64,000 nt of DNA from Gordonia sputi NBRC 100414 (GTDB taxonomy: Bacteria; Actinomycetota; Actinomycetes; Mycobacteriales; Mycobacteriaceae), in the NCBI RefSeq assembly GCF_000248055.1, contig NZ_BAFC01000034.1:1-64000 (forward strand), in the 5' to 3' direction. Positions 42,241-49,036 of the stretch are shown in pieces. How positions within the stretch are numbered: the first letter of the stretch is position 1; each line of letters starts with the position of its first letter. The translations under genes were made by a program, and so were the position numbers. The notes under the pieces were generated by a model. The model did not search any database. It saw nothing but the letters and a program-made list of their open reading frames with translations, and was not told the origin of the DNA.

Positions 42241-42263
42241 TTGTCGTACCCACCCTGTAGCGT
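42241..42263 (+). promoter_or_regulatory. Promoter-like box of the second DUF222 gene
   Basis: TTGTCG (42241-42246) and TAGCGT (42258-42263) with an 11-bp gap match the box before the first DUF222 gene. They lie about 50 bp before GTG 42314, which supports that start. Confidence 0.4.
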
Positions 42264-42313
42264 TGTTGTCAGATCGAACACACAAGCGATCACCAACAAC
42301 ACGGCAAAAAGGG

Positions 42314-43948
42314 GTGGCCATTACCGACATCATCGACGACCACGCCCCGACGTCACCGTTCCCGCATTCGCCACTGTCGTTCACCGCCGACGACATCGAC
42401 ACGATCAGTCACCTGTCCGGTGTCGAACTCAACGACGTCGCCCGCACCACCCAACGTCTCGCACGCCAAGCCGAAGCACGCACCGCACTTCTCGCCTATC
42501 GCATCGGCGAATCGATCGCCGACGACATGCTCGTCGTCGCCGCCACCCGACCCCACACCCACCACGCCGTCGACAAAGCAGCCATCGCCGAAATCTCGCT
42601 ACAACTCGGCATCTCCCGATCACTCGCGCGCCGCTACGCCATCCTCGGCGCCCACCTCACCGACCTCCCCCACACCACCCTCGCCTTCCTCGACGGCCAC
42701 ATCCGGTTATCCCGCATCGAGCTCGTCGCCGACCAACTCTCGATCCTCGACCCGTCACTACGAGCACAGGCCGAACCCCTCGCGCTCGAACTCGCCCGAC
42801 GCACCTCCGCCGACTCCACCCTGCGAGACCAACTCACCGAACTGGTCATCGCTCTCGACCCCGACGCCGCCACCGGTGCCCGCCACGACTTCGCCGACCG
42901 CAACCAAAACATCCACATCCGACCCGACACACACGGACACGTCACCCTCGACGGCTGCCTACCCGCCGAACAAGGCCTCCACCTCGCCCAGCGCATCTCC
43001 ACACTCATCGACGAACGACTCTGTGCCGATGACCCACGCACCCACGGCCGACGCCGCGTCGCCGCCCTCGCCGACATCCAAGGCCTCCCCGGCGCCCACC
43101 TCACCTGCCACTGCGGAAACACCACCTGCCCCGCCACACCATCCGAGCCCGAAACAGACTGCGACACAGCACCATTCGACGACACAGCACCGCTCGACCA
43201 GCCCGACACCGGCGAGGCCGACGCAGGTGTGACTGACGCAGGTGTGACTGAGGCAGGCGAGGCACCCGCGGAGGATCTGCCCAACACCGGCGAGGCCAAC
43301 GCAGAGGTGGCCGCTGACAGCGCGACCTGCGATGAGCACCATGCCGAAGAGCCGACAGCCGAGCCCGCACAACAGACGGCGCTGGAAGTACTCATCGATC
43401 CCGCCGGCGTCGCGGTTCCCCGGCTCGTCGGCTTCGGCGTGATCGACCCCGCCCACGCAGCCGAACTCGCCGCAGGCGTCATCGCACGACCCGTCGCGTT
43501 TCCCGACCTCACCGCAGCAAACCTCACCTCGCCAGGACTCAACCTCGCCGCGATGGAATCCAACCTCGCCGCATGGGAGCTGCCCGACAATCCCGCACCT
43601 CCCGCCGACCCCACCGGACACGGCGGCTACCCAGCACCACCACCATGGGCGCTGCGATACCGACCACCCGACCGGCTACGCCAACAAGTCATCGCCCTGC
43701 ACGGGGTATGCCGCTACCCCGAATGCGGCAAACCCGCCGAACACACCGAACTCGACCACCTGGTCAAGTTCAACCACGCCGACCCCCACGCGGGCGGCTG
43801 GACCGTGCTGTTCAACCTCGTCCCCCTCTGCGGACCCGACCACCAACGCAAACACCTCGGCTTCTGGACACCCACCATGCACACCGACCTCTCCATCACC
43901 TGGACCAGCACCCGCACAGGCGAAACAATCACCACATACCCACGGTGA
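42314..43948 (+). CDS. DUF222 / HNH endonuclease-domain protein (second copy)
   Basis: A 544-residue paralogue of the gene at 29972. The DUF222 domain opens the protein and the HNH domain closes it (CRYPECG, ELDHLVKFNHADP, PLCGPDHQRKH). The linker holds a 15-bp tandem repeat (43221-43250) encoding DAGVTDAGVTEAG. The coding strand is markedly C-rich and G-poor compared with its neighbours, and about 17-bp repeats run across its stop codon. GTG 42314 is preferred; TTG 42263 gives a longer frame. Confidence 0.83.
   Translation: MAITDIIDDHAPTSPFPHSPLSFTADDIDTISHLSGVELNDVARTTQRLARQAEARTALLAYRIGESIADDMLVVAATRPHTHHAVDKAAIAEISLQLGISRSLARRYAILGAHLTDLPHTTLAFLDGHIRLSRIELVADQLSILDPSLRAQAEPLALELARRTSADSTLRDQLTELVIALDPDAATGARHDFADRNQNIHIRPDTHGHVTLDGCLPAEQGLHLAQRISTLIDERLCADDPRTHGRRRVAALADIQGLPGAHLTCHCGNTTCPATPSEPETDCDTAPFDDTAPLDQPDTGEADAGVTDAGVTEAGEAPAEDLPNTGEANAEVAADSATCDEHHAEEPTAEPAQQTALEVLIDPAGVAVPRLVGFGVIDPAHAAELAAGVIARPVAFPDLTAANLTSPGLNLAAMESNLAAWELPDNPAPPADPTGHGGYPAPPPWALRYRPPDRLRQQVIALHGVCRYPECGKPAEHTELDHLVKFNHADPHAGGWTVLFNLVPLCGPDHQRKHLGFWTPTMHTDLSITWTSTRTGETITTYPR
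43221..43250 (+). repeat. 15-bp tandem duplication in the DUF222 linker
   Basis: ACGCAGGTGTGACTG is present twice in direct tandem (43221-43235, 43236-43250), with a partial third copy. Confidence 0.8.
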
Positions 43949-43984: not shown

Positions 43985-44025
43985 GAGTCTTCCTGTGGCG
44001 GCAGGCTTTGCGGGATGATGCGGTG

Positions 44026-44589
44026 ATGAACAAGGAGCATCTGGAGTTGTGCGCGAGCACCGAGTGGGCAGATGCGTTGTCACAGTGGATCGTGCCGTGG
44101 GCGCTCGACGACGTCGAATTGGGTTCGGATGCCGTCGAATTCGGCCCCGGACCGGGTTTGACCACCGACATCCTGCGTACGAGAACTCAACACCTGACCG
44201 CGGTTGAGGTCGATGAGGCGCTGGCTGCGGCGCTTGCCGATCGTTTCGCCGAGGCAGACGACGTGACTGTCATCCACGCCGATGGCACGGCATCTGGACT
44301 CGAAGGCTCGCGCTACACGGCCGTCGTGTGTCTGACCATGCTGCATCACGTGCCATCGACAGAACTTCAGGACGCGATCTTCGCGGAGGCGCGTCGACTC
44401 TTGACCGCGGACGGCGTCTTCGCGGGTTCCGACAGCAGGGATAGCCCGGACTTTCGCGCGCTGCACGCCGGCGACGTCTGCGTGCCGGTCGATCCGGCGA
44501 CGTTGGCCGAGCGACTCAACGCAGCGGGCTTCACCGACGTCGAGGTCGAGACGAACGAGTGGGCGGTCCGCTTTCGCGCGCGACCCTGA
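44026..44589 (+). CDS. Class I SAM-dependent methyltransferase
   Basis: A 187-residue methyltransferase with motif I VEFGPGPGLTTDIL for SAM binding, the acidic strand end TAVEVDE and HADGTASG in the middle. No target-specific domain. ATG 44026 is preferred over GTG 44023 and the TTG frame to 44008. It lies between the second DUF222 gene and whiB7; the hairpin at 44644 separates it from whiB7. Confidence 0.87.
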   Translation: MNKEHLELCASTEWADALSQWIVPWALDDVELGSDAVEFGPGPGLTTDILRTRTQHLTAVEVDEALAAALADRFAEADDVTVIHADGTASGLEGSRYTAVVCLTMLHHVPSTELQDAIFAEARRLLTADGVFAGSDSRDSPDFRALHAGDVCVPVDPATLAERLNAAGFTDVEVETNEWAVRFRARP

Positions 44590-44711: not shown

Positions 44712-45035
44712 TCAGGCCGCGGTCTTGCGCGGGCGGCCGCGGGGGCGCTTGCGCGCGATCACGGCACCACGCTCGAAGATCTCGCCGCCCCAGACGCCCC
44801 ATGGCTCGGCACGATCAAGCGCAGCCTGCAGGCACTGCGCCCGCAGCGGGCAGTCGGCACACATCGCCTTGGCACGCTCGAGGTCACGGGGGTCTTCGGC
44901 GAACCACAGGTCGGCGTCGGCTTCCTGGCACGGAAGGGTCGAGGCGGTGAGTGCCGGTGCGGCACTCAGCGCGTTCCCGGCAGCGACCTCACGGTCCGCC
45001 GAGATACAGGACTCCAGAACACATTCGACGGTCAT
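44712..45035 (-). CDS. whiB7: Redox-responsive transcriptional activator WhiB7
   Basis: A 107-residue Wbl protein with four cluster cysteines (C36, C59, C62, C68), the EPWGVWGGE turn (77-85) and an AT-hook RPRGRPRK (97-104), which is diagnostic of WhiB7. It activates intrinsic drug-resistance genes with the main sigma factor. GGAG lies 6 bp before ATG 45035, so this start is preferred over GTG 45047. The gene has a roughly 500-nt leader with its own ORF and terminator. Confidence 0.95.
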   Translation of the reverse strand: MTVECVLESCISADREVAAGNALSAAPALTASTLPCQEADADLWFAEDPRDLERAKAMCADCPLRAQCLQAALDRAEPWGVWGGEIFERGAVIARKRPRGRPRKTAA

Positions 45036-45142
45036 CTGGTACTCCACATCTGTTCGAGGTTGGTCATCGTCTGTGGCGATGGCCCTCGGCCTCGACGTGA
45101 TGGGAGTTGCCGATCCACTGGTGTGGTGGTTCGGTGATCCGT

Positions 45143-45186
45143 CACGAGAAAGGCCACGGGTCGCCTTGTGCGATTCACCCGTGGCC
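45143..45186 (-). terminator. Attenuator-type terminator in the whiB7 leader
   Basis: On the minus strand GGCCACGGGT (45186-45177) and ACCCGTGGCC (45161-45152) form a perfect 10-bp stem with a 15-nt loop, followed by TTTCTCGT. It lies between the leader ORF and whiB7, as in the transcription-attenuation model reported for mycobacterial whiB7. Confidence 0.75.
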
Positions 45187-45207
45187 GTTGTGGCTGTCGA
45201 AACCCTC

Positions 45208-45456
45208 CTACGTGGAGAGATCCCGAGTCAGTACGGGGAACCGCTGCATCGCTCGCTTCGCTGCGGCAGTGCTCGCTACCGGTGCTGCCGGTGGGAAACC
45301 GGTGGCACCGAGACACGGTGCGGGCTGCAGGTCTGCAGCACGCCAGGCGTGGTCACTGACGGCGTATGCGCGCGGCGCATGGTGCGTGATGCGATGAGCA
45401 TCTGGCATCGCTGCGATCGTCTTCGCAATCACGATTGCGTTGGCGATTCCGTTCAC
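45208..45456 (-). CDS. whiB7 leader ORF (82 codons)
   Basis: An upstream ORF in the whiB7 5' leader. GTG 45456 has AAAGGAG ending 7 bp upstream, a better site than most genes in this window, and the frame runs to TAG at 45208, 22 bp before the attenuator stem. The predicted peptide (NGIANAIVIAKTIAAMPDAH, then Pro/Ala-rich) shows no family. Leader translation slowed by an antibiotic could prevent formation of the terminator; the mechanism is inferred from studied actinobacterial whiB7 leaders. Confidence 0.7.
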   Translation of the reverse strand: MNGIANAIVIAKTIAAMPDAHRITHHAPRAYAVSDHAWRAADLQPAPCLGATGFPPAAPVASTAAAKRAMQRFPVLTRDLST

Positions 45457-45543
45457 TGATCCACTCCTTTCGGTCTCGATGGTTTCGCGAGGGGTCGTGG
45501 CACACATGAATATGCCGGTGACCTTCCCGTGCTGACGCGAACC

Positions 45544-45582
45544 AGACTATTCGGTTCGCCGTAGAGCGCACAACCTATTTTT
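45544..45582 (-). promoter_or_regulatory. Putative WhiB7-dependent promoter of whiB7
   Basis: On the minus strand: AT-rich AAAAATA (45582-45576), then TTGTGC as -35 (45573-45568), an 18-bp spacer and TAGTCT as -10 (45549-45544). An AT-rich stretch 2-3 bp upstream of the -35 box is the reported WhiB7 promoter pattern. The AT stretch lies over the uvrD2 stop codon. The expected RNA start is near 45537. Confidence 0.7.
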
Positions 45583-47701
45583 GACCTGCGGTTTTGACGA
45601 GTTCGATGACCTCTTCGCCGTACTCGTTGAGCTTGGCGGCACCGATACCCGAGATCGACACCAGCGCAGCGGAATCCGTCGGCCGCTGCTCTGCGATCGC
45701 AAGCAATGTCTTGTCGGAGAACACGACAAAGGCGGGAACCTTCTTCGAGTCCGCTCGCGTCCGGCGCCACTCCTTGAGCGCCACGAGCAGACCCTCATCG
45801 AGATCCGACGGGCAATCGGCGCACCGGCCGAGCAGAGTTGCAGTCGAATCGAGCAATCGCGACCCGCACACCCGGCACGTCGGTCCCTTCCGCGGTGCTC
45901 GCTTCGACGCCGGTGCGATACGCGACGCGGGCGAGTCGTCGGGCACGAGGTCGGCGAGGAATCGCGAACGACGTCGTGCTCGACCGCCCTCGTTGCGGGC
46001 GATCGCCCATGAGATGTGCAGATGTTCGCGGGCTCGGGTGACGCCGACGTAGAAGAGTCGACGCTCCTCCTCGACGTCGTCGAACGATCCCTTGATGGCC
46101 TGACTGATCGGCAGCGATCCCTCTGTCAGTCCGACAAGGAACACCGCATCCCATTCCAAGCCCTTCGCCGCGTGCAGCGACGACAGCGTGACGCCCTGGA
46201 CGGTTGGTGGGTGCCGAGCCTGCGACCGCGCGTCGAGTTCTGCGACGAGCTCGGGCAGTGTCAGGGCGGGATTGTCGGCAAGCATGTCGTCGGCAAGCCC
46301 GGACAGCGCACGCAGCGACTGCCAGCGGGCCTTCGCCTGCGCACCCGTCGGCTCGTCGTCGGACATGCCGAGCTCGCCGAGGACCGATCGCACCACCGTG
46401 GCAAGTTCGACGTCGTCGCGGATTCCCCGCTGCGCCACGAGCGAGAGCTGCCGCATGGCCTGACGGACCTCAGCCCTGGTGAAGAACGCCTCGCCACCAC
46501 GCACCTGGTACGGGATGCCCGCCTGGGTGAGCGCCTGCTCGTGATTCTCCGACTGTGCGTTGATTCGGTAGAGAATCGCGATCCCGGAGGCGGGTACACC
46601 CGAGTTCATCAGACGCTTGATGGCCGACGCGACGGCCGACGCTTCGCTCGGCTCGTCGTCGTATTCGGCGAACTCGGGTTCGGGTCCGGCGTCGCGCTGT
46701 CCGATCAGTTGCAGTCTCGTCCCGGCGATCCGCCCACGCGCAGCCCCGATCACCCGGTTGGCGAGGCTGACCACCTGCGGCGTCGACCGATAGTCGCGTT
46801 CGAGGCGCACAAGCGTGGCGTCGGGGAATCGGCGGCCGAAATCGAGAAGGTACTTCGGTGTGGCGCCGGTGAACGTGTAGATCGTCTGGTTGGCGTCGCC
46901 GACCACGGTCAGGTCGTCGCGGGGACCGAGCCAGGCGTCGAGCAGACCCTGCTGCACCGGCGTCACGTCCTGATACTCGTCGACGACGAAACACCGGTAG
47001 CGCGAACGGAATTCGTCGGCAAGCCCGGCGTCGGACTCGATGATCGTCGTCATGTAGATGAGGAGGTCGTCGAAGTCGAGGAGGCGGTCGCCGTCTGGTG
47101 AGACCTTGGCGTCCTCGTAGGCGGCGAAAGCCTTGGCGACCTGCGCGGCGGGTGCGGGCGTCTCTCTGGTGGCACGGGTGACGGCAGCGACGTAGTCCTC
47201 GGGTCCGATGAGCGACGCCTTGGCCCACTCGATCTCCGACATCAGGTCGCGCACGGTGTCGGTGGAACTGTCGAGTCCGGCTTTGCGTGCCGCACGTCCG
47301 ACAAGTGGGAACTTGTTGTCGAGCAGCTCCCACGACGCACTGCCGAACGCGCGCGGCCAGAAGTAGCGGAGCTGGCGCATGGCCGCAGCGTGGAACGTCT
47401 GCGCCAACACGCTCGGACCGCCGGCGCCGACGCCGAGCGACCTCAGCCTGCCGCGCATCTCCCCCGCCGCCCGCGCCGTGAACGTCACGGCGAGCACCTG
47501 ACCGGGATTGACCTGCCCCTGATCGATCAGATACGCGATGCGTCGCGTGATGGTGCGCGTCTTGCCGGTACCCGCACCCGCCAGCACACACACCGGACCG
47601 CGCGGCGCGAGGACTGCGGCCCGCTGCTCGGGGTCGAGTCCGTCGAGGATGCTGCGGTCACGTGCGCGGGGCGATGAGGGGCTGTCGGACACGGGTTCCA
47701 C
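45575..47701 (-). CDS. uvrD2: ATP-dependent DNA helicase UvrD2
   Basis: A 708-residue superfamily 1 helicase. Walker A is [13 protein letters not shown] is the DEXX-type box, and DANQTIY, YRST and [18 protein letters not shown] are later helicase motifs. A tetracysteine zinc motif (CRVCG ... CADCP) and an HRDC domain end the protein, the known UvrD2 layout. GTG 47701 or GTG 47692 are possible starts; the frame is open to 47821. It diverges from mycoredoxin. The stop codon lies inside the whiB7 promoter. Confidence 0.95.
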
Positions 47702-47819
47702 TATGGCACCCCGATACGACGCCGACGCCGGCCCGTTCACCGCTGTCCACAAGCGCGCCACACCCTCACCGTGGAGACAGGTCGGGAACACGCGCCGACG
47801 AGTTCGTGTTGTGGATGCC

Positions 47820-48086
47820 ATGAGCGAGACATCTGAGAATCAGACCCCCGCCGCACTGACGATGTACACCACGTCGTGGTGCGGCTACTGCGCGCGACTC
47901 AAGACGGCCCTGCGCAGCTCGGGCCTCGAGTGGACCGAGATCGACATCGAGCGCAACCCCGACGCCGCAGAGTTCGTCGGCAGCGTCAACGGCGGCAACC
48001 ACGTGGTCCCGACGGTCCAGTACGCCGACGGCACGACCGCCACGAACCCATCGATCACCGACGTCAAGAAGAAGCTCGGCGTCTGA
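47820..48086 (+). CDS. mrx1: Mycoredoxin-1 glutaredoxin-like protein
   Basis: An 88-residue thioredoxin-fold protein with the active site C21-G-Y-C24. Mycoredoxin-1 reduces mixed disulfides formed with mycothiol. ATG 47820 is the likely start. It lies between uvrD2 (divergent) and nudC (convergent, 11-bp gap), the same order as in mycobacteria. Confidence 0.93.
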
Positions 48087-48097
48087 GACAGGCCCGG

Positions 48098-49036
48098 TCA
48101 GGCGGGCGTGCGCGCCCAGGCCTCGACCAGCGCCCGCGCGATGGAGATCGAGCCGGGCAGCAGTAGCCGAGGGGCGTCCTCGCCGTCGGCGACGTCGGGT
48201 TCGGGCATGCCCCGCAGCCATTCGTCGCCGCGGTCGAGCGCGTCGAGTACCTCGGCGCGCGTGAACCATTGCGCGTCGCCGATCTCGCCGTCGAGAAACT
48301 GGAGCGGTTCGGCGGGGTCGCCGAGCGCGGAGAAACCGAGCATCAGTGATCTGGGGAACGGCCACGGCTGCGATCCCAGGTATCGCGGCTCGCTCACGGT
48401 GATCCCGACCTCTTCGTGAACCTCTCGGATCACGCACTGCTCCAACGACTCTCCCGGTTCGACGAAGCCCGCGAGCGTTGAGTACCACCGGTCGGGCCAG
48501 ACGGCCTGACGTCCGAGCAGGATTCGGTCGGCGCCGTCGTGGACGACGGTGATGATCGCGGGGTCGGTGCGCGGGAACTCGTCGACGCCGGTCTCCGGAT
48601 TGCGACGCACCCAACCGCCACGTGCCGGGACGGTTGGGGAGCCGTTGACGGGTGAAAACCGTGCTGTCGCATGCCAGTTCAAGATACCGAGCGCGGTGGC
48701 CAGGAGTCCGGCCTCGTCGGCGTCGAGTCGGGAGGCTCCGCGTCGAGGATCGGCGGTCTTGCCGTCGAGTGCTTCGACCCTGATCGTCCACAGGTCGGTG
48801 TCGGTGTGTGCGAGGAAGACCGCATCGGCCGGAGGCTCGTCTCCGAACTCAGAACTGTCGACCCACCGCAGCGCCCCGTCGGGCTCGACGGGATAGCGAC
48901 CGCCGGTATCGATGCGAAGTACGCGCGCTGTCGGCCAGCCTGCGAGCATACGGTCGGGTTCGTCGCGGACCTCGTCGGCACGGTCAAACGTGCCTCGAGA
49001 CAGCAGCGGCGGTTGGTCGAAGACAAAGGCGCCCAT
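48098..49036 (-). CDS. nudC: NADH pyrophosphatase NudC
   Basis: A 312-residue Nudix hydrolase that cleaves NADH and NAD-type molecules. The Nudix box is GFVEPGESLEQCVIREVHEEVGI and the NudC signature SQPWPFP follows. The four Cys zinc ribbon of E. coli NudC is not visible in the region before the Nudix domain, so the metal-binding element is lost or changed. ATG 49036 is the likely start; the frame to 49255 lacks resemblance. It is at the end of the adnA-adnB-channel-nudC run. Confidence 0.9.
   Translation of the reverse strand: MGAFVFDQPPLLSRGTFDRADEVRDEPDRMLAGWPTARVLRIDTGGRYPVEPDGALRWVDSSEFGDEPPADAVFLAHTDTDLWTIRVEALDGKTADPRRGASRLDADEAGLLATALGILNWHATARFSPVNGSPTVPARGGWVRRNPETGVDEFPRTDPAIITVVHDGADRILLGRQAVWPDRWYSTLAGFVEPGESLEQCVIREVHEEVGITVSEPRYLGSQPWPFPRSLMLGFSALGDPAEPLQFLDGEIGDAQWFTRAEVLDALDRGDEWLRGMPEPDVADGEDAPRLLLPGSISIARALVEAWARTPA

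Follow-up and report, generated by a model that had tools for sequence, protein, structure and literature searches.

The whiB7 leader of Gordonia sputi has the conserved layout of a ribosome-stalling attenuator

The gene whiB7 of Gordonia sputi NBRC 100414 is preceded by a leader that very probably (about 85%, on the sequence evidence assembled here) serves as a transcription attenuator working through ribosome stalling. The window that we analysed, 64,000 nucleotides long (contig NZ_BAFC01000034.1, positions 1 to 64,000), holds the whole arrangement on its minus strand: a WhiB7-type promoter, an upstream open reading frame (uORF), an intrinsic terminator and then whiB7. The leader is a new case of a known kind, the whiB7 attenuator. 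The attenuation mechanism of whiB7 and wblC has been published (PMC11550727, PMC10727445, PMC9618640, PMC13393426). No account of a Gordonia whiB7 leader appeared in the titles and abstract openings of the whiB7 literature searched, a search with most subscription papers outside its coverage. The parts of the locus, all on the minus strand, are as follows.

45575..47821, minus: uvrD2, the upstream gene, encoding a UvrD/REP helicase with an HRDC domain (Pfam UvrD-helicase, UvrD_C, HRDC)
45574..45582, minus: AT element AAAAATAGG of the WhiB7-type promoter, read from the sequence
45577-45575, minus: TAG stop of uvrD2 (protein end AGQK), within the AT element
45568..45573, minus: -35 box TTGTGC, read from the sequence
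45544..45549, minus: -10 box TAGTCT, at a spacer of 18, read from the sequence
45464..45470, minus: Shine-Dalgarno site AAAGGAG of the uORF, read from the sequence
45208..45456, minus: leader uORF, GTG start at 45456, TAG stop at 45210-45208, 82 codons, 21 of them for alanine
45244..45288, minus: alanine-dense zone, the 15 codons preceding the Arg codon of the arm, 7 of the 15 for alanine
45233..45244, minus: computed antiterminator arm within the uORF, GCGGTTCCCCGT, codons Arg-Phe-Pro-Val
45197..45226, minus: hairpin spanning the uORF stop codon and flanked by the two antiterminator arms, predicted for the window only
45170..45182, minus: partner of the arm in the computed fold, ACGGGTGAATCGC, part of the terminator 5′ arm and loop
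45152..45186, minus: intrinsic terminator, a 10-bp stem with a nested loop stem, followed by TTTCTCGT
45186-45177 and 45161-45152, minus: terminator arms GGCCACGGGT and ACCCGTGGCC, respectively
44712..45035, minus: whiB7, 107 amino acids, WhiB domain, C-terminal RGRPRK

The earlier note on this DNA had placed these promoter elements correctly to within a base or two, and its Shine-Dalgarno site and 82-codon reading frame are where it put them. Its 10-bp stem and U-tract also hold up; the gap between the uORF stop and the stem is 21 nt, not the 22 that it counted. In the window, the AT-rich part of the AT element lies 2 bp (GG) before the -35 box (AAAAATA-GG-TTGTGC), near the roughly 3 bp that mark whiB7/wblC attenuators, and 116 nt separate the terminator from the start of whiB7. 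The product of that gene has a Pfam Whib match, and GVWGG and RGRPRK can be read in its sequence. Its best solved-structure matches are to WhiB7 itself (7kif_Z, E 8.4e-33; 7kug_A, 4.9e-26); those to other WhiB proteins are 2e-7 or worse. NCBIfam gave no WhiB match for this protein or for the second WhiB7 copy described below. The nearest named relative is WhiB7 of G. jacobaea mv1 (96% at the amino-acid level).

Does this layout recur in the genus? Our sample comprised 60 whiB7 loci from 59 Gordonia genomes, the window’s own included; every genome had a whiB7 match, and one gave two loci. One of these two, L150 (which shares its genome with L135), was left out of the codon, fold and cluster-based alanine counts, leaving 59 genomes in 34 clusters; all 60 loci were kept for the frame-wise alanine and the indel and substitution analyses. 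The AT element, the uORF and the start of the terminator were each present at 60 of 60 loci, as was the TTG of the -35 element, and a TANNNT -10 element stood at a spacer of 17 or 18 in 59. Absence of the reading frame and stem from relatives had been named beforehand as evidence against attenuation, and both are present throughout. The uORFs behind the full count were picked partly by the motif that they carry; when the motif was drawn more narrowly, 8 of the 60 were not recovered, and a motif-free scan with a strict Shine-Dalgarno requirement recovered a uORF at 47. Since Gordonia uORFs span 39–124 codons, the 82 codons seen here are ordinary. In many of the long ones, two motifs recur: Met-Asn-Gly-Ile at the start and, further in, Arg-x-Arg-Ser-Trp (in L110, for example, at codons 1–4 and around codon 30). 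The terminator stem shows compensatory change: at two positions, pairing was kept through changes on both sides. The 8-bp register test of the terminator was weak at L145, and at L136 and L138 the stem chosen automatically either differed from the GGCC stem or had no T-run directly after it.

The promoter was also said to lie on the uvrD2 stop, and in the window this is so. To follow the overlap through the genus, the end of uvrD2 was located by tblastn, after a stop-codon pattern had failed at many loci. Of the 60 loci, 28 had the stop within the AT element and 18 had it elsewhere (among them L122, likely a mis-hit); at the other 14, tblastn did not find uvrD2. The overlap is thus common, not universal.

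The way in which the uORF changes is informative about its function. Among 75 close, overlapping pairs of loci, 93 of 115 indels in the uORF were multiples of three, vs. 32 of 156 in the spacer that follows the terminator; because its indels keep the reading frame, the uORF is very probably translated. In the same pairs, there were 787, 858 and 1071 substitutions at first, second and third codon positions, respectively, a distribution which points to weak constraint on the peptide overall. The best-conserved part of the peptide is Arg-Phe-Pro-Val (RFPV). Across the 59 genomes, its Arg is replaced by Gly in seven, and its Pro by Ser in four and by Ala in one. Some Gordonia with short uORFs carry CCGTGG at an RPW segment.

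The RFPV codons constitute the putative antiterminator arm. In the minimum-energy fold of the window’s leader, the arm (45244-45233) can pair over 12 bp with the 5′ arm and loop of the terminator. We extended these folds to all 59 genomes, using the RNA before the terminator 3′ arm is made, setting the 3′ edge of the ribosome at 13 nt and scoring the arm as paired when at least 8 bp formed with the terminator 5′ arm and loop. With the ribosome placed five codons upstream of the arm, this pairing formed in 59 of 59 genomes; it formed in 56 with the ribosome eight codons upstream, in 53 with the ribosome near codon 5, and in none once the ribosome covered the arm or had reached the stop codon. 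Folding with and without a stalled ribosome had been suggested as a check, and among the ribosome positions modelled the pairing appears only with those upstream of the arm. The antiterminator modelled in this way is genus-specific and captures the terminator loop. Taking the single best duplex as the finder of the arm failed in GC-rich leaders; in-context folds and synonymous-codon controls were used in its place.

These controls, made on the 34 cluster representatives, point the same way. The arm’s Arg codon had A or G at its third position in all 33 cases (0.44 expected, judging by the Arg codons elsewhere in the same uORFs), its Pro codon was CCC in 27 of 29 (0.22 expected), and its Val codon was GTC in 0 of 28, non-GTC codons being expected at 0.56. 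Moreover, the duplex of arm and terminator beat the mean of its synonymous recodings in 34 of 34 representatives (Stouffer Z -10.7). This codon choice indicates selection on the RNA, not on the peptide.

From these observations, the leader most probably operates as follows. RNA polymerase would start at the WhiB7-type promoter, and ribosomes would translate the uORF. Free-running ribosomes would cover the RFPV codons while the terminator emerges, so that the terminator would fold and whiB7 would stay off. A stall upstream of the arm, caused by a drug or by an uncharged tRNA—most plausibly that for alanine—would leave the RFPV codons free to pair with the emerging 5′ arm and loop of the terminator before the 3′ arm is made. 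This capture would block the terminator, and transcription would continue into whiB7. WhiB7 may in turn act on its own promoter via the AT element, by analogy with the mycobacterial literature. Stalling, readthrough, alanine as the preferred cue and the feedback on the promoter are what we infer here. The ribosome-stalling attenuation that the earlier note had envisaged is supported by the promoter, uORF and terminator kept at 60 loci and by the computed antiterminator. Induction of whiB7 by stalled uORF translation, or by starvation for alanine or amino acids, is on record (PMC13236596, PMC4128351, PMC11550727, PMC10727445, PMC13393426, PMC9618640).

What would such a leader sense? Alanine codons are abundant in the uORF: in frame, alanine averages 22.9% over the 60 loci, vs. 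7.4% and 11.7% in the other two frames and 11.2% expected from base composition, and the in-frame value exceeds these three in 60, 59 and 60 of the 60 loci. Four other proteins of the window contain 11–16% alanine; whiB7 contains 21%. Alanine is, moreover, placed ahead of the arm. It makes up 41.6% of the 15 codons before the arm, 19.2% of those further upstream and 3.1% of those after it (34, 30 and 34 representatives), and it is higher before than after the arm in 34 of 34 representatives. In the bin 4–15 codons past the arm, for which 18 clusters have at least 8 residues, it stands at 6.3%, as compared to 3.1% in the whole tail.

These figures bear on the idea of a general attenuator that responds to slow translation whatever its cause, in which the richness in alanine would be a by-product of GC-rich, weakly constrained coding. 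The genus is GC-rich, the peptides drift in length and sequence outside the arm, and many drugs are among the published inducers. The excess of alanine over the other frames and over composition, its placement before the arm in every representative, and the lower content of the four other window proteins all weigh against a by-product. We judge a cue so unspecific possible but less likely than not.

The earlier note had supposed that the sensing code could be new; it is not new in kind, judging from its likeness to the known, alanine-rich one. Of the 67 whiB7 loci taken from outside Gordonia, a filter that required a TCCGTG-type arm towards the end of the uORF retained 32, most of them mycobacterial, two from Rhodococcus and one from Pseudonocardia. 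In these, alanine amounted to 43.1% before the arm, 30.3% further upstream and 3.2% after it. The comparison of leader peptides across genera that had been proposed thus yields a pattern common to Gordonia and its mostly mycobacterial relatives: an alanine zone, an arm and an alanine-poor tail. Lower alanine contents were seen in the uORFs of Pseudonocardia (L039, L051) and Halosaccharopolyspora (L043), at only 6–10%, and in Nocardia L078 and Rhodococcus L029, at about 15%, all below mycobacteria and Gordonia. The alanine code may be confined to a section of the Mycobacteriales. The amino-acid composition of the uORF is said, in work attributed to Poulton in 2024, to set whiB7 expression. The alanine pattern in Gordonia fits published alanine sensing by whiB7, alanine starvation being cited as an inducer of the gene (PMC13236596, PMC10727445, PMC11550727).

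The conservation of RFPV could also be taken to mean that the peptide is itself the sensor, a nascent chain ending in Arg-Phe-Pro-Val stalling the ribosome on a drug. It is the best-conserved part of the peptide, and Pro is common in arrest peptides. However, the synonymous sites of the motif codons are constrained, the motif is not strictly conserved (Arg changed in 7 and Pro in 5 of 59 genomes), the peptide overall drifts at all three codon positions, and a ribosome sitting on the motif hides the arm in the folds. We thus consider an arrest peptide improbable. Some resistance-gene uORFs act by translational attenuation, and here the uORF might likewise govern access to the Shine-Dalgarno site of whiB7; yet a terminator-like stem with compensatory changes stands between the two frames, and the uORF arm pairs with that very stem, which makes control at this level most improbable. 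Although the leader is long and structured, a metabolite riboswitch or T-box of a known family is hardly credible, as no curated Rfam family matches it (none in 45030-45600, even at E values up to 10). Between 40 and 50 kb of the window, the sole Rfam hit was ASpks at 48916-48988, which is distant and weak, scoring under its cut-off.

How widely might the whiB7 promoter be used? The pattern AAAWWNGGTTG-N18-23-TANNNT has a single site in the 4.95-Mb genome, at whiB7, and none when reversed. Three WhiB7-type promoter patterns, this one included, gave 1, 2 and 3 sites in this genome, and their reversed forms gave 0, 0 and 1. Since so few sites were found, either the motif of the WhiB7 regulon is looser or the regulon is small. 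By eye, no clear gene start lies just downstream of the promoter-pattern site on C75 (L152).

The genome of G. sputi also carries a second whiB7 (G000:C24, L118 2574-2936, 120 amino acids), as does that of G. jacobaea (L119); among the matches listed, such a copy at more than 90% identity occurs in only 2 of the 59 genomes. By blastn, L118 2582-2692 matches the middle of the uORF (45410-45305; 79%) and then passes directly into whiB7 from 44956 (90%). The part absent from the copy corresponds to 45304-44957 of the window, which spans the remainder of the uORF with the arm, the terminator, and codons 1 to 26 of whiB7. The N-terminus of the copy is a uORF remnant in a different frame, its first ~45 residues being largely old uORF DNA. 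Between the two species, the copy’s WhiB domain appears to be under constraint, with a nonsynonymous divergence (dN) of 0.019 and a synonymous divergence (dS) of 0.278 over 70 codons (NG86). Because the G. jacobaea copy is closer to the primary whiB7 (dS 0.125) than to its counterpart, gene conversion could explain part of this low divergence.

The 1500 bp upstream of the second copy showed no AT element. By eye, the 39 nt before its start, TTGACT included, are identical in both species, and for this reason it may have a promoter of its own. The case is evenly balanced that a duplication and an internal deletion of ~350 bp freed this second WhiB7 from the attenuator, giving one WhiB7 gated by stalling and one that is not. 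An HNH-endonuclease-like frame (42263-43948, 1.7 kb; Pfam HNH just below the cut-off) lies in the window, and a 93% identical copy of it (1713 nt) stands beside the second whiB7 at L118 3305-5001; L119 shows only 87 bp of this frame. The element is a possible vehicle of the whiB7 duplication. Tail-to-tail with the primary whiB7 is a methyltransferase gene (Methyltransf_11; 44008-44589, plus strand), for which Pfam RrnaAD scores above its cut-off and the NCBIfam Erm and RsmA models far below theirs.

These results lay out the whiB7 attenuator across a genus outside Mycobacterium and name its likely working parts: the codons of the antiterminator, the portion of the terminator that they would capture and the positions of the alanine codons. 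The order of parts shared despite different arms provides a testable rule on the cue sensed by leaders of this kind. A second whiB7 devoid of its attenuator, if that reading is true, would be a natural experiment on the loss of the gate.

The Gordonia leader shares its logic with several known systems. In the trp attenuator of E. coli, too, regulatory codons lie ahead of a pairing segment. The same holds for amino-acid attenuators such as that of mycobacterial ilvB1 (PMC13236596), in which a stall exposes the antiterminator; unlike these, the Gordonia leader controls not a biosynthetic operon but a stress and resistance regulator, and would be expected to respond to drugs too. The Streptomyces wblC leader, likened here by description and not by sequence, has a uORF, a terminator and antiterminator logic (see PMC11550727).

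A close likeness is to the mycobacterial whiB7 leader, for which a uORF and a Rho-independent terminator have been described (PMC4128351), and, in M. abscessus, a promoter with an AT motif upstream of the -35 element (PMC10727445). Both leaders have an AT element before the -35 box, a Shine-Dalgarno site, a uORF and a terminator with a GGCCACGG-type stem; in both, the uORF contains codons that complement the terminator 5′ arm, and an alanine-rich zone precedes them. The uORFs of the mycobacteria compared have 41–71 codons, as against 39–124 in Gordonia. The arms also differ: that of Gordonia, RFPV (GCGATTC..CCGTG), pairs into the conserved terminator loop GAATCGC, whereas the mycobacterial candidate, ASV (TCCGTG), is the best terminator partner at only part of the loci. 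A uORF and stem were found at 49 of the 67 non-Gordonia loci; the late SV-type segment was the best terminator partner in 12 of these 49, and an early GTGGCC copy, complementary to the terminator 5′ arm, was the strongest partner in 22. This early copy lies near codons 3–6, and in the mycobacterial uORFs L018, L026, L030 and L040 within codons 3–10. A two-arm antiterminator is possible. What Gordonia and the mycobacteria have in common is the order—alanine zone, arm, alanine-poor tail, stop codon, terminator—and what differs is the sequence of the arm.
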